54,727 nt of DNA from Bacillota bacterium (GTDB lineage: Bacteria; Armatimonadota; HRBIN16): the NCBI GenBank assembly GCA_023511455.1, contig JAIMBJ010000023.1, positions 1-54,727 on the forward strand, in the 5' to 3' direction. Numbering within the stretch: position 1 is the first letter of the stretch; each line of letters opens with the position of its first letter. Positions 16,943 to 43,303 of this stretch are shown here, in pieces. A model generated the notes under the pieces. The model was not told the DNA's origin and ran no database searches. It saw nothing but the letters and a program-made list of their open reading frames with translations. A program made the position numbers and the translations under genes.

Positions 16943-18001
16943 TCACATCCCCAGCCACTTCTGATAGATGGCTTCGAAGATACGGACGTCCTGAATCGCA
17001 TCTTCTCCAGAAGAACGAAATGGTTCGCCCGTGCGTATGCAGTGGATGAAGTGTGCCGCCTCACGCTGAAACGACCACGACCAGCCCTCTTCGGGAAAGT
17101 GGCGGGAGTACTCTGCGCCATCCTCTGCACGATAAACCTCTACGGTAGCACAGGAGTTGCGCAGCAGCAACGGGGGCGAGGTTACCTTCACCCACCCCTT
17201 CTGGAAGTATGCCTGGCTATCTTCATCCCACTGGTGCGCTGCCAGTCCCCCCGTTTCCAGTGAAACACGCACGCCACCCATCCGCAGTACAGCCACACCC
17301 GTGAAGGCGTCGTCGTCGAGGTCGACGGCTGTCACCTGCCAGTCATCACCAGCGTTCAGCAGCCAGCGGGCGAGGTTCACGTTGTGGCAGTACACCTGCA
17401 GGTAGGCGATGTAGCTGTGGTGGTATTTCTCAGGCAGCCACTGGGGTACCTCGTTGGGCGCACTGGGGTAAGGTTCGTCGGTCTGGATGACCGTTGCCGA
17501 GTTGCCTGCCGTCCAGTTGCCTCCGAAGCAGCGGGCTCGCAGGTAGAAGAGTTTGCCCAGCTCGCCGGACTGGCGGCACTGGTCGATGAGTTGCTTTGCC
17601 AGCTCAATGCCGGCGTCGTATCGCTTCATGTAGGCAACCATCAGGCGACCGCCTCCCTCTCGCGCCGCCTGTAACATGCGTTCCGCACGCTCCACCGTCA
17701 GAGCCATTGGTTTTTCCATGAACACAGGCTTGCCCGCCCGCAGCGCGTCTTCTGCCACCTGCGCCTGATGCACGTAATGCGCCGATACCGCAACGGCATC
17801 AATGTCTGGGTCTAACAGCAGCTCGCTATGCGTGGTATATACACGCGGGATGCCAAAACGCTCCGCCACCTTCTGCGCGAGCTGCGGGCGCACCTCCGCC
17901 AGCGCCACCACTTCACAGTCGGGCAGGGCGGTGAAGTTGGGCAGGTGCACTGCCTGTGCCATAAAGCCTGCTCCAACATATCCCAAACGAATCTTTTCCA
18001 C
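16943..18001 (-). CDS. Gfo/Idh/MocA-family NAD(P)-dependent oxidoreductase
   Basis: A 352-aa oxidoreductase with an N-terminal Rossmann fold (LGYVGAGFMAQAVHLPNF), the typical EKP motif (KPVFMEKPMALTVERAE, about residues 93-108) and a C-terminal alpha/beta substrate domain. Members oxidise or reduce sugars, inositols or related alcohols. GTG 18001 has GGAGGAGG six bases upstream. It lies 18 bases after a sugar-phosphate isomerase-like gene, a common pairing in inositol and rare-sugar pathways, so both probably act on one cytosolic sugar substrate. The exact substrate cannot be read from the sequence. Confidence 0.88.
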   Translation of the reverse strand: MEKIRLGYVGAGFMAQAVHLPNFTALPDCEVVALAEVRPQLAQKVAERFGIPRVYTTHSELLLDPDIDAVAVSAHYVHQAQVAEDALRAGKPVFMEKPMALTVERAERMLQAAREGGGRLMVAYMKRYDAGIELAKQLIDQCRQSGELGKLFYLRARCFGGNWTAGNSATVIQTDEPYPSAPNEVPQWLPEKYHHSYIAYLQVYCHNVNLARWLLNAGDDWQVTAVDLDDDAFTGVAVLRMGGVRVSLETGGLAAHQWDEDSQAYFQKGWVKVTSPPLLLRNSCATVEVYRAEDGAEYSRHFPEEGWSWSFQREAAHFIHCIRTGEPFRSSGEDAIQDVRIFEAIYQKWLGM

Positions 18002-18019
18002 GTTTTGCCTCCTCCTTCA

Positions 18020-18844
18020 TTAGATTTTTGCCAGCACAGCATCCAGCGCGGCTTTGGCGTTACGGATGACGTTTTCATGACTGTCTGCCCAGTAGTCGCG
18101 GTTAAAGATTTCGATGCTCAAGAACCCCGTGTAGCCTATCTCGTTTTTAAGAATTCGGAACTCCTCCACCAGCGGTATCACGCCGTGCCCGGGATACACA
18201 CGGTGGCTGTCGTTCATCTGCTCGCGAGGCAGGTCGGGGCAGTCGTTGACGTGTACGATGAGCAGGTGCTCTTTGGGCAACCGGCGTATCTCTTCCAGCG
18301 GGATGCCCGACTTATAGTAGTGGAAGGTGTCCATCATGATGCCGACGTTCCGGCTGGTAGATGCTCCGACCACCGCCAGTGCCTGTCGCGGTCCGGGCAT
18401 GAAGGGCGCGCCACCGATTGGCTCCAGCGCGCATTTCACCCCATACTGCCCACTGACCTCGCCGTAGCGCTGGGCGGATTTGCCTGCGCGCTCAATCGCC
18501 TCGGCGATGCCCATGCCCGGCGGTGGGGCGTCGGCAGTGAAGCAGAGAAGGGTTTTGCTGCCCAGCTGGCGGGCGGTGCGTGCATACCTGTCGATGCGAC
18601 GCAACTGCTCTTCCTGCTGGACGGTATCGAAGGCGAAAAAGGGAAACGCCATCACTGCCGCGACTTGCAGGCAGTTCTTTGCCAGCTGGCGTCTGAGGTC
18701 GCTGAGAGAATGGCGCGTAAGATAGTCATCGATACGCCCAGCCTCGATCTCCACGCCATCGTAACCGTATTTGCCCAGCAGGTCGAGCGTTGTTTCCAGC
18801 GGTTTATCTGCCCCGCAGGTGATGGTGTTGAAACAGATTTTCAT
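18020..18844 (-). CDS. Sugar phosphate isomerase/epimerase (xylose isomerase-like TIM barrel)
   Basis: A 274-aa TIM barrel of the AP-endonuclease-2/xylose-isomerase-like superfamily. Visible metal-site segments are GYDGVEIEAG near residue 32, KCALEPIGG, MMDTFHYYKSG (Asp/His), LLIVHVNDCP and a last YTGFLSIEIFN with Glu. ATG 18844 follows GGAGG by six bases. It precedes the Gfo/Idh/MocA gene on the same strand. A second, distinct member lies at 30257-31093. Activities in the family include inosose, tagatose or hydroxypyruvate isomerisation; none can be chosen. Confidence 0.85.
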   Translation of the reverse strand: MKICFNTITCGADKPLETTLDLLGKYGYDGVEIEAGRIDDYLTRHSLSDLRRQLAKNCLQVAAVMAFPFFAFDTVQQEEQLRRIDRYARTARQLGSKTLLCFTADAPPPGMGIAEAIERAGKSAQRYGEVSGQYGVKCALEPIGGAPFMPGPRQALAVVGASTSRNVGIMMDTFHYYKSGIPLEEIRRLPKEHLLIVHVNDCPDLPREQMNDSHRVYPGHGVIPLVEEFRILKNEIGYTGFLSIEIFNRDYWADSHENVIRNAKAALDAVLAKI

Positions 18845-19409: not shown

Positions 19410-19446
19410 GTTTCTCTGAGACGGTTGGGCACAGGAGGGCAAAGCA

Positions 19447-19872
19447 ATGCCACAGCCTATCTCAGAACAACATCCGCTGCGGCAATTGTTTGCTACCCTA
19501 GTGGAGCAGGCGTTTACGCGCGTGCTTCAGGAGTACGAGCCTGCGGTTTTACGCTACATGGTGAACCTGCTGACCGAGTTTACCCACGTCGATAACGTCT
19601 ACCGCATCCGCGATGCTCGCGGCAGGGCGTTACAAGAGGTAGCCGAGATGCTGGCGGAAGGCGATATGTTGCTCAACGCCACATCCTTTGCCCGCGAGCG
19701 TGAGGTACATCGTCATATCGGGGACTTTACGCTGTTCTGGTCAGGCGTCTATCCAGAGGCGATGCCGCGCCTTCGCCACGCGCTGAGCAAAGATGCGCTG
19801 ATCGATTACGTGCAGCAGGGCAAGAAGTCCTACTACATCGTTTCCACCTTTGAAGAGGGCGAGTGGCGTTAG
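19447..19872 (+). CDS. Conserved-looking unknown protein truncated by an in-frame TAG; sense frame continues to 20001
   Basis: A 141-aa mostly helical protein with ENxYRIRD-like and REREVHRHIGDFTLFWSGVY segments. I recall similar unknown proteins of about 190 aa in Acidobacteria-like genomes that continue past this point with an APLFRRLS...GLNLVRQ ending. Here TAG (19870-19872) follows EGEWR, yet the same frame continues EAPLFRRLSERFELYMFGLN to a TAG at 19999-20001. GGAGG overlaps the first stop and a TTG at 19882 could restart translation of 39 aa. Options: nonsense mutation, readthrough, split gene or assembly error. ATG 19447 has AGGAGGG upstream. No function is known. Confidence 0.6.
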   Translation: MPQPISEQHPLRQLFATLVEQAFTRVLQEYEPAVLRYMVNLLTEFTHVDNVYRIRDARGRALQEVAEMLAEGDMLLNATSFAREREVHRHIGDFTLFWSGVYPEAMPRLRHALSKDALIDYVQQGKKSYYIVSTFEEGEWR

Positions 19873-19881
19873 GAGGCGCCG

Positions 19882-20001
19882 TTGTTCAGACGGTTGTCCG
19901 AACGGTTCGAGCTGTACATGTTCGGGCTGAATCTGGTGCGCCAGGGCTGGGAACGCCTCGCTCGCGAGCACTTCGAGCGGTGGCAACGTGGTTTACAGTA
20001 G
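19882..20001 (+). CDS. Downstream part of the TAG-interrupted protein, possible TTG-initiated ORF
   Basis: In frame with the preceding gene and separated only by its TAG. If translated separately from TTG 19882, with GGAGG (19872-19876) five bases upstream, it gives a 39-aa peptide FRRLSERFELYMFGLN...EHFERWQRGLQ. Its last nine bases overlap the end of the convergent glycosyltransferase gene. It more likely represents the C-terminus of a single ancestral protein than an independent gene. Confidence 0.45.
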   Translation: MFRRLSERFELYMFGLNLVRQGWERLAREHFERWQRGLQ

Positions 20002-21096
20002 ACTCTGATACAGCGCGAGAAGGCGCTGGATATGCTGTTCTAAAGTATATCGTTCACAGACCGCGCGGCGCGCCGAAGAGGCTATCTCCCATCGTTGTTG
20101 CTCGCTGGTGAGCAGGGAATGCACGGCATCCGCCAGGGGACGGGGTTTGTTTGGGGGCGTCAGAATACCGGTTCGTCCGTTCTCCATGATTTCGGCTGGC
20201 GCACCCCGATTTGCCGAAACAACGACAGCACCGCTTGCCATTGCCTCCAGAATGACCAGACCAAACGGCTCCGGGCGGGTACTGCAATGTACCAGCACGT
20301 CAGCAGCGGCGATAACAGGAGCAATGTCGCGCTGAAATCCCAACCAGCGTATCTGCGAATGATTTGCCTCGGACATTGCCCGCACCCTCACGGCATAACG
20401 ATGGTCTCCCATGCTGTCATCACCCGCCAGCCAGAAGACAGCCTCACGATGCTGGCAACGCAGTATCTGCGCCATCTGCAAAAAGAGGTGCTGTCCTTTG
20501 AAGGGCATCACCCTTCCCACGTGAATCACCACAGGAACATCGGCAGGGGTGCCAAACCGACGGCGCACCTCCGTACGCGCTGGAGGCTCCAGCGGGCGGA
20601 ACAGGGAGGTGTCCACGCCGTGCGGGAGGTGCTGTACCCTGTCCTGCAGCCTCCTTCCCATCTGTCTTTGTAACGCCCTGGAGTAGGCAACCACCGCTTG
20701 TGCATAGCGCTGAGCCACCGTTCGAAGCCATATCCTCTGCCAGGGGAAGGGGAACAGGTCGTGGATAGACCACACCAACGGCACGCGCAGGTCGCGGCAA
20801 GGACGGCCGGCAAACCACCCCGCGCGTACGGAGTAGGCATGCACCAGGTCGGACCGCGCGATAGCATTACGGAGCCGTTGAGAAACACCCTCGCTCAGTT
20901 TACTGCTGCGGCGCAGGGAAGGGAACTCGATGGGAAGCACATCTATCCCCAGAGCGCGCGCCTCTTCGGCAAGTGCGCCGGGCGGGCAAGCCAGAGCCGG
21001 TTGCACCTGATCGCGCGGCAGGCGCTCCAGCACGCGCAGCAAACTGATTTCTGCTCCGCCCAGCCCTCCCCACTGATTCACATAAAGGATTCGCAT
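19993..21096 (-). CDS. Glycosyltransferase family 4 (GT-B fold)
   Basis: A 367-aa cytosolic/peripheral glycosyltransferase. The N-terminal domain begins MRILYVNQWGGLGGAEISLL; the C-terminal Glyco_transf_1 domain has VIHVGRVMPFKGQHLFLQMA and the nucleotide-sugar E-x7-E segment PEPFGLVILEAMASG. ATG 21096 is preferred over the ORF start at 21114 because it lies just after the preceding gene's stop (21101-21103) with CAGGA upstream. It pairs with another GT-B enzyme, suggesting sequential sugar additions to a surface polysaccharide, lipid or protein. Confidence 0.88.
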   Translation of the reverse strand: MRILYVNQWGGLGGAEISLLRVLERLPRDQVQPALACPPGALAEEARALGIDVLPIEFPSLRRSSKLSEGVSQRLRNAIARSDLVHAYSVRAGWFAGRPCRDLRVPLVWSIHDLFPFPWQRIWLRTVAQRYAQAVVAYSRALQRQMGRRLQDRVQHLPHGVDTSLFRPLEPPARTEVRRRFGTPADVPVVIHVGRVMPFKGQHLFLQMAQILRCQHREAVFWLAGDDSMGDHRYAVRVRAMSEANHSQIRWLGFQRDIAPVIAAADVLVHCSTRPEPFGLVILEAMASGAVVVSANRGAPAEIMENGRTGILTPPNKPRPLADAVHSLLTSEQQRWEIASSARRAVCERYTLEQHIQRLLALYQSLL

Positions 21097-21100
21097 GGCA

Positions 21101-22201
21101 TTAATCCTGAGCATACGCCTCCGCGATTTGCCGGACGATGCTTCGCCATTCGAACTGCAGAGCGAATTCGCGCCAGCGTGCCCGCACAGCGTGTGAACGG
21201 CTCTCTTCCACGCTCAGAAGCACCTTCTCCGCCAGCGACTGTACGTCGTTCGGCGATGCAACCGGACAGACCTTGCCTGCCCACTCGTTCAGCGCAGGGG
21301 TGTCTGCAATTACTGCTGGCGTGCCGCACGCCAGCGATTCCAGTACCGGCAAACCGAATCCTTCGCGCCACGAGGGAAAAAGCAGGACATCGCAGCTCTG
21401 GTACAGGTCGCGAAGGCGCAGGTCGTCTGTATCGGCGTCCACCTGAATGCAATCTGCAATGTCCAGCTCGCGTGCCAATCGCTGGTGGGATGGCGGTAAG
21501 GGCTGTCCTGCTTTGACCCACCTCACCGGATGACCGATGTGGCGCAGGTGTGCTACCGTGCGCAGGACGGCTGGAATGTTCTTGTAGGGGGCGTTCGAGC
21601 CGACGTGCAGTATCGCTATCTCGTGCGGCTGGAACCCCAGCTCCTCGCGTTTGCGCCGCCGCAGGTCGTCTGGCAGGACGGTGAAAAAGCCGGTATCCAC
21701 GCCGTTATATACCGTTTTCACTTTCTGCGCGGGCACAGAAAAGAGACGCATCAGGTCGCTGGCAGTGGCGTGGCTGCAGGTGATGATGACTTCTGCGTCT
21801 GTGAGGTGCTCGATTGACCTTCGATACAGCCATTGCCCCAGCATCCGGCTTAAAGGGTGGCGATAGATATTCTGCATGACGAGCGGTATCAGGTCGTGAC
21901 AGGTAACGACCTTCCGGTTCGCAGATGTAACTGGAAACAGGAAGGACTCGCTGTGGTCTACCACGTGCAGTACATCGCAGCGCGGCAGGCGGGCTGCCAG
22001 ATGTTGAAGGTATCGTTGCGTGAAGAGCACGTACAGAACGTGGATAACCGCCGCAGGCACGCGCCATCGGAGAATCGTTGGGGGGCGCAGGCTCACGTAT
22101 CGGATTTCGCACGGCACAGGCAGATACCGGTGCATTGCCTGTGTGACTCGCTTCATGCTGGGTGCGCTGTGTGGATGCGCTCGCAAAAGCGTGACGTGCA
22201 T
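21101..22201 (-). CDS. Glycosyltransferase family 1/4 (GT-B fold)
   Basis: A 366-aa GT-B enzyme. Recognisable parts are VVTCHDLIPLVMQ in the N-terminal domain, HVGSNAPYKNIPAVLRTVAH at the start of the C-terminal domain, and SWREGFGLPVLESLACGTPA carrying the E-x7-E motif. It heads a two-gene minus-strand operon with the next transferase beginning four bases after its stop. The 78-base gap to the divergent HTH gene must hold both promoters; no clear elements were seen there. Acceptor unknown. Confidence 0.88.
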   Translation of the reverse strand: MHVTLLRAHPHSAPSMKRVTQAMHRYLPVPCEIRYVSLRPPTILRWRVPAAVIHVLYVLFTQRYLQHLAARLPRCDVLHVVDHSESFLFPVTSANRKVVTCHDLIPLVMQNIYRHPLSRMLGQWLYRRSIEHLTDAEVIITCSHATASDLMRLFSVPAQKVKTVYNGVDTGFFTVLPDDLRRRKREELGFQPHEIAILHVGSNAPYKNIPAVLRTVAHLRHIGHPVRWVKAGQPLPPSHQRLARELDIADCIQVDADTDDLRLRDLYQSCDVLLFPSWREGFGLPVLESLACGTPAVIADTPALNEWAGKVCPVASPNDVQSLAEKVLLSVEESRSHAVRARWREFALQFEWRSIVRQIAEAYAQD

Positions 22202-41812: not shown

Positions 41813-43282
41813 ATGGTACGGCGACATCACTGGCGACAGGTGGTGTGCTGCGTCATCCTGACGTACCTATGCCTGGCTCCACCGGCGCTTTCACAACGTC
41901 TTATCTGGCTCGGCACGTTGGGAGGCAGTGAGAGCGAGGCGTACGCCGTCTCCGACAACGGTATCGTGGTTGGGCAGGCGAGCACAGGTTACGGCGGTTA
42001 TAACGCTTTCCGCTGGGTTGACGGAGTCATGCAGAACTTGAATGTGGCGGGAAACGGGTCGGCACATGGTTGTTCTCCAGATGGCTCCGTAGTGGTAGGT
42101 CGCTCTACCGACAGAGGAGCATTTCGCTGGACAGCACCGGGCGGGGTACAGTATCTTGGTGGGCTGGGTGCTTCGGACGTCTGTGCAGATGGTTCGGTGG
42201 TTTGCGGGTGGGCATACTTTGGTGCGTCGCGCCGTGCGTTCCTCTGGACAGCGGATACCGGTCTGCAGGAACTGGGCTCGCTGGGAGGAGGCGATAGCGT
42301 GGCACGAGGCATCTCCGCAGACGGAGCGGTGGTTGTGGGGGATTCCAACAGGTCAGACTTCCGTCGCCATGCCTTCCGGTGGACGGGGGATGCAGGAATG
42401 CAGGACCTCGGTACACTGGGAGGTTTGGAGAGTTGCGCTTACGATGTGTCTGCGGACGGCAGCGTCGTGGTCGGTAGCGCCAGCCGTGCCGGAAGTGCAT
42501 CGCCACGCGCCTTTCGCTGGACTGCAAGCGGAGGAATGCAGGACCTTGGCACACTGGGAGGCAGTCAGTCTGTCGCCCGGGCGGTCTCGGCAAACGGCGA
42601 GGTGGTGGTCGGGGATTCTCAGCCCGTTGGGGCGTCGTGGAGCCGTGCGTTCGGCTGGACACAGTCTGGTGGGATGGAGAACCTGAACACCTCCTATGCC
42701 GCCCTGTTAACACCCGGGTCACACCTGGGGGTTGCTTATGGCATCTCGCCCAACGGACGTTTCATCGTCGGCAAAGGCTGGAATGCCGAGACGAGGCGCA
42801 ACGAAGCCTTTCTCCTGGATACAGGACTCCGCACGTTCCGGATTTGGGGACGTATTGAACTACGCGACTTCGTCGGAGATGTGACGCAAGTGCCCATCGG
42901 CATGGAGCTGCGACAGGGCGGCGTGCCTGTGCGCACCGAGACCATCTTCCTGAACGCGGACGGCAACTACACCATCCCCGACGTGGAAAACGGTACCTAC
43001 GACCTCGCCTTCAAAGCCAGTCACTGGCTGCGGACGGTAGTGGCAGGAGTACAGGTTAGCGATATGGACGTGAGCGGGGTCGATGTCTCTCTCACCAACG
43101 GTGACGTGGACGGCGACAACGAGGTGACACTGTTTGACTTTGGCGCGCTGGTGGCGGCTTTCGGCTCGGTGCCGGGCGATGGCAACTGGAACCCTGATGC
43201 GGATTTCGACGGGGATGAAGAGGTCACCCTGTTTGACTTCGGCATTCTGGTGGGCAACTTCGGTGCGGTAGGGGACGAATAG
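41813..43282 (+). CDS. Exported HAF-repeat beta-propeller-like protein with dockerin-like C-terminus
   Basis: A 489-aa secreted protein: signal peptide (VVCCVILTYLCLAPPALSQ), then six to seven extracellular HAF-type repeats (about 30-330, consensus ...LGTLGG..S.A..VS.DGSVVVG), a carboxypeptidase-regulatory-like beta domain (IWGRIELRDFVGDVTQVPIG...DLAFKASHWLRTVV) and two EF-hand-like repeats at the end (GDVDGDNEVTLFDFGALVAA and FDGDEEVTLFDFGILVGNFG). The paired DxDGDxxVT repeats resemble dockerins. ATG 41813 has GGGGAGGG seven bases upstream. Likely a surface or secreted calcium-binding protein; a partner cohesin was not seen. Confidence 0.75.
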   Translation: MVRRHHWRQVVCCVILTYLCLAPPALSQRLIWLGTLGGSESEAYAVSDNGIVVGQASTGYGGYNAFRWVDGVMQNLNVAGNGSAHGCSPDGSVVVGRSTDRGAFRWTAPGGVQYLGGLGASDVCADGSVVCGWAYFGASRRAFLWTADTGLQELGSLGGGDSVARGISADGAVVVGDSNRSDFRRHAFRWTGDAGMQDLGTLGGLESCAYDVSADGSVVVGSASRAGSASPRAFRWTASGGMQDLGTLGGSQSVARAVSANGEVVVGDSQPVGASWSRAFGWTQSGGMENLNTSYAALLTPGSHLGVAYGISPNGRFIVGKGWNAETRRNEAFLLDTGLRTFRIWGRIELRDFVGDVTQVPIGMELRQGGVPVRTETIFLNADGNYTIPDVENGTYDLAFKASHWLRTVVAGVQVSDMDVSGVDVSLTNGDVDGDNEVTLFDFGALVAAFGSVPGDGNWNPDADFDGDEEVTLFDFGILVGNFGAVGDE

Positions 43283-43303
43283 TTCGGAAGCAACGGGAGC
43301 AGG

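Follow-up and report, generated by a model that had tools for sequence, protein, structure and literature searches.

Stop codons within the reading frame are a well-known and widespread occurrence in bacterial genes (PMC7918605). In the cases described by Belinky et al. 2021 (PMC7918605), TAG stands for a sense codon in a conserved bacterial gene with both flanks intact, the stops are common to two or more genomes, and in the illustrated case TAG alternates with CAG. A stop and a start close together are also found in translational coupling by termination-reinitiation. In most native coupled pairs the genes overlap by 4 or 1 nt, and 203 E. coli pairs have a gap of +9 to +12 nt (PMC10666635). 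Reinitiation drops steeply with distance, with a loss of 40-80% at +14 nt in E. coli (PMC10666635). An in-frame TAG is also found in amber recoding, that is, in pyrrolysine or TAG-reassigned codes.

The gene described here lies in a window of 54,727 nucleotides (the whole stretch of DNA that was analysed) and has an in-frame TAG as codon 142. As in the genes of Belinky et al. 2021 (PMC7918605), this TAG takes the place of a sense codon in a conserved gene, both flanks are intact, and an exchange between CAG and TAG would account for it. Unlike theirs, it is known from one genome only, and the species was represented by that single genome in the comparison. A stop-to-start distance of 9 nt and a Shine-Dalgarno-like motif recall coupled gene pairs (PMC10666635); unlike in those pairs, one ancestral gene is interrupted here, the candidate start is a TTG and the arrangement occurs in no relative. 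The in-frame TAG is shared with amber recoding, from which the present case differs in that no CUA tRNA was found, PylS was below the cut-off, RF1 was intact and TAG serves as a stop. On the comparison of orthologues given below, the most likely explanation, and the one that is favoured here, is that a conserved gene of an unnamed family recently acquired a nonsense substitution in this lineage alone.

The original prediction of 141 codons, a TAG and 42 further sense codons in one frame was confirmed in its coordinates (19447-20001) and in its details. The open reading frame at 19447-19872 encodes 141 aa and ends at the TAG; past codon 142 the frame continues for 42 sense codons (EAPLFRRLSERFELYMFGLNLVRQGWERLAREHFERWQRGLQ) to a further TAG. 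The features are listed in the table.

Table. Features of the interrupted gene and of the sequence around its in-frame stop.
Feature	Position	Strand	Basis
Gene of an unnamed all-helical family of about 184 aa, one in-frame stop inside	19447..20001	+	Open reading frame, alignment of relatives, predicted structure
Shine-Dalgarno sequence AGGAGG of the gene's own ATG (19447)	19433..19438	+	Sequence
In-frame TAG, codon 142; every relative has a sense codon (in the genus CAC/CAT/CGC/CAG)	19870..19872	+	
42 sense codons after the TAG; identical in protein to the nearest relative; contain the family-invariant L161 and R165	19873..19998	+	
True (ancestral) stop, TAG; end position of all genus orthologues	19999..20001	+	
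TTAGGAGG, Shine-Dalgarno-like, overlapping the in-frame stop; relatives have only GAGG or GAAG	19869..19876	+	
In-frame TTG (Leu146), possible restart codon; CTG/TTG/TTA/ATG in relatives	19882..19884	+	

Searching with the protein identified 37 related loci from Armatimonadota and Planctomycetota. Of the 10 genomes of the genus, 9 (including that of the window) were found to have the gene, and a search at the level of the order instead of the family retrieved no genomes beyond these ten. Codon 142 is a sense codon (CAC, CAT, CGC or CAG) in all eight other genomes of the genus in which the gene occurs. About 30 distant homologues of Planctomycetota and Armatimonadota likewise have a sense codon at this place. 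Orthologues stopping at the same point, which were to count against the original prediction, were looked for and none was seen among the relatives readable over the region (8 genus genomes and about 30 distant homologues). The genus orthologues end exactly at the window's second stop and the distant homologues end near it. Nucleotide identity within the genus is 79-92% across the whole 555 bp. Since in the relatives the frame stays open past codon 142 and aligns, as a single frame, with both halves, the locus is a single gene, not two, and the two halves read as one protein, as had been proposed.

Gene order around 19447-20001 is kept in two genomes, G005 and G006. Upstream lies a pair of genes for a Gfo/Idh/MocA oxidoreductase and a xylose-isomerase-like protein (16943-18844, minus strand), and downstream two glycosyltransferase genes converge on the interrupted gene (19996-22201, minus strand); the end of the first glycosyltransferase gene overlaps the final bases of the interrupted one. 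The gene is seemingly absent from G001 because a break between contigs leaves an assembly gap there: C94 ends just beyond the upstream gene and C250 starts within the downstream glycosyltransferase. Its absence was not accepted as a sign of dispensability.

The nearest relative (locus L002, genome G007) is identical to the window gene at 92% of nucleotides and 98% of amino acids. Around codon 142 the window has CGT TAG GAG where this relative has CGG CAC GAG. The differing bases (19869, 19870 and 19872) make three changes within four bases, a slightly dense cluster. When the changes were polarised with seven outgroups, both of those in codon 142, as well as that at the third base of codon 141 (141.3), fell on the window branch. 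Compared with this relative, codons 143-184 contain 4 synonymous changes and 0 amino-acid changes; of these 4, at most 1 arose on the branch of the window, and nonsynonymous changes past codon 142 number 0 on that branch. Had codons 143-184 evolved neutrally throughout the branch, they should have gathered about 15 nonsynonymous changes, versus the 0 observed. The number of synonymous changes past the stop is low as well (at most 1 versus 4.5 expected, P about 0.06), and the lack of amino-acid changes is therefore weak evidence. From the undecayed tail it follows that the stop is young, that the tail is still used or that the base is wrong; the intact reading fits a young mutation, continued use and an error equally well.

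The ancestor would have had a sense codon at position 142, where most genus members have His. The simplest path would lead from His to Gln (CAY to CAG, with CAG present in one member of the genus) and then by a transition from CAG to TAG. We infer both this two-step path and the youth of the mutation. Termination at codon 142 would give a product of 141 aa without the last two predicted helices, and the protein would probably be inactive or much reduced in activity, with loss of function as the expected outcome. A low level of restart at the downstream TTG may accompany it.

The family (the window gene and loci L002-L038) is unnamed, about 180 aa long, all-helical and well conserved in Planctomycetota and Armatimonadota. 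Its signature comprises HIGDFTLFWSGVYPE, DYxxQGKRSY and RRLSxxFExxxxGLxxVRxxWE. Searches of Pfam and NCBIfam with the family gave no significant match, and the PDB gave no significant match by sequence and no confident one by predicted fold. AlphaFold2, with 36 relatives as input, produced a confident all-helical model (pLDDT 92). In this model residue 142 is in a short loop (residues 141-143), followed by helices at 144-152 and 154-183; in the family alignment the linker around residue 142 is variable in length. Fourteen residues are invariant in the family and two of them, L161 and R165, are in the tail after the stop; the nearly invariant S151, F154, E155 and G160 also lie past codon 142. 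Because the tail holds the invariant L161 and R165, the 141-aa product, as modelled, is probably defective. Apart from its stop, the gene documents a conserved all-helical family for which no counterpart was found in Pfam, NCBIfam or the PDB.

The decoding machinery was that of a genome that terminates at TAG. RF1 (prfA) is present, with a score of 529 bits (cut-off 423). No CTA anticodon, and so none of the TAG-suppressor tRNAs that were to be looked for, was present among 43 tRNA hits, a set that is incomplete and in which no Tyr or Ile tRNA was identified. The missing Tyr and Ile tRNAs of this genome (G000) are probably due to assembly gaps. A weak hit (L092) was considered as a suppressor candidate and rejected, its anticodon being CCC. 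Matches to the PylS profile were all below the cut-off, as they were in most controls. Five or more window genes end in TAG, and this gene, at its conserved end, is one of them. Stops within the window were surveyed with non-overlapping longest open reading frames compared with G005 and G006, as a count of all stop-to-stop frames was swamped by antisense frames. Roughly 25-28 window genes have a syntenic orthologue in G005 or G006, and apart from the gene described here none of them had a stop inside its conserved body; the remaining flagged stops were start or end differences, or weak or repeat matches.

Recoding of TAG is unlikely because RF1 is normal, a CUA tRNA was not found and TAG is used as an ordinary stop. 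A reassigned TAG, read as an amino acid throughout the genome, has nothing in its favour beyond this codon; it is most improbable and was rejected together with suppression, on RF1, the tRNA set, the PylS scores and TAG usage. Programmed or tolerated readthrough, which would supply a lowered amount of the 184-aa protein, would explain the purifying-type pattern downstream of the stop, and bacterial in-frame stops with dN/dS below 1 are on record (PMC7918605). However, the scarcity of synonymous changes weakens that pattern, the stop is conserved in no relative, and the RNA structure around it is not exceptional, being no stronger than that of shuffled sequence (z = -0.88); with the machinery described above, readthrough is very unlikely. 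Four options had been offered at the outset, with no choice among them (readthrough, a restarted split gene, a nonsense mutation and an error). A nonsense mutation or an error is favoured over programmed readthrough because no relative shares the stop, the tRNA hits include none of a suppressor type, RF1 is unimpaired and a pyrrolysine system was not found. An error, either of assembly or base calling or through a minority strain variant in a metagenome consensus, would fit a singleton stop with an intact reading behind it, and the closest known genomes are metagenome-assembled. The published study of in-frame stops dropped singletons on the same ground (PMC7918605), and in one deposited genome a significant share of the interrupted genes turned out to be sequencing errors (PMC1852416). 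Three bases differ from the nearest relative, though, and one miscall would suffice only if the true codon already differed; the assembly is of good quality (98.98% complete, 73 contigs), and the window genes tested had no other such stop. An error is possible but unlikely.

A functional split gene is also doubtful. It would terminate at the TAG and reinitiate at TTG 19882, aided by GGAGG, with pieces of 141 and 39 aa that assemble. The overlap of GGAGG with the stop was borne out (19872-19876), and TTAGGAGG ends 5 nt ahead of the in-frame TTG, with a stop-to-start gap of +9 nt, within the +9 to +12 nt class of the E. coli pairs (PMC10666635). The break falls in the predicted inter-helix loop, at the length-variable spot of the family, and the second piece has kept its amino-acid sequence. 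A hairpin predicted over the site might make restart dependent on a terminating ribosome, but it has the unexceptional stability given above. TTG is moreover a weak start, and no relative has the arrangement. Chance is enough to account for it, because in the window's genes about 3.9% of codon positions have a Shine-Dalgarno-like 4-mer with an in-frame start within five codons and because most of the motif, GAGG and the Leu codon, is already present in uninterrupted relatives. That the mutation creating the TAG also completed a Shine-Dalgarno sequence at a suitable spacing from the TTG, in an inter-helix loop, one or two substitutions thus splitting the protein into two chains that still assemble, is conceivable but quite improbable. 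With the nonsense substitution as the preferred explanation, termination-reinitiation at the TTG is possible as a secondary effect. A singleton in-frame stop matters little by itself; it is the comparison of orthologues that settles a suspected case of recoding.

Elsewhere in the window, positions 43055-43303 resemble several places in G005 and G006, and probably represent a repeated domain or a mobile element.
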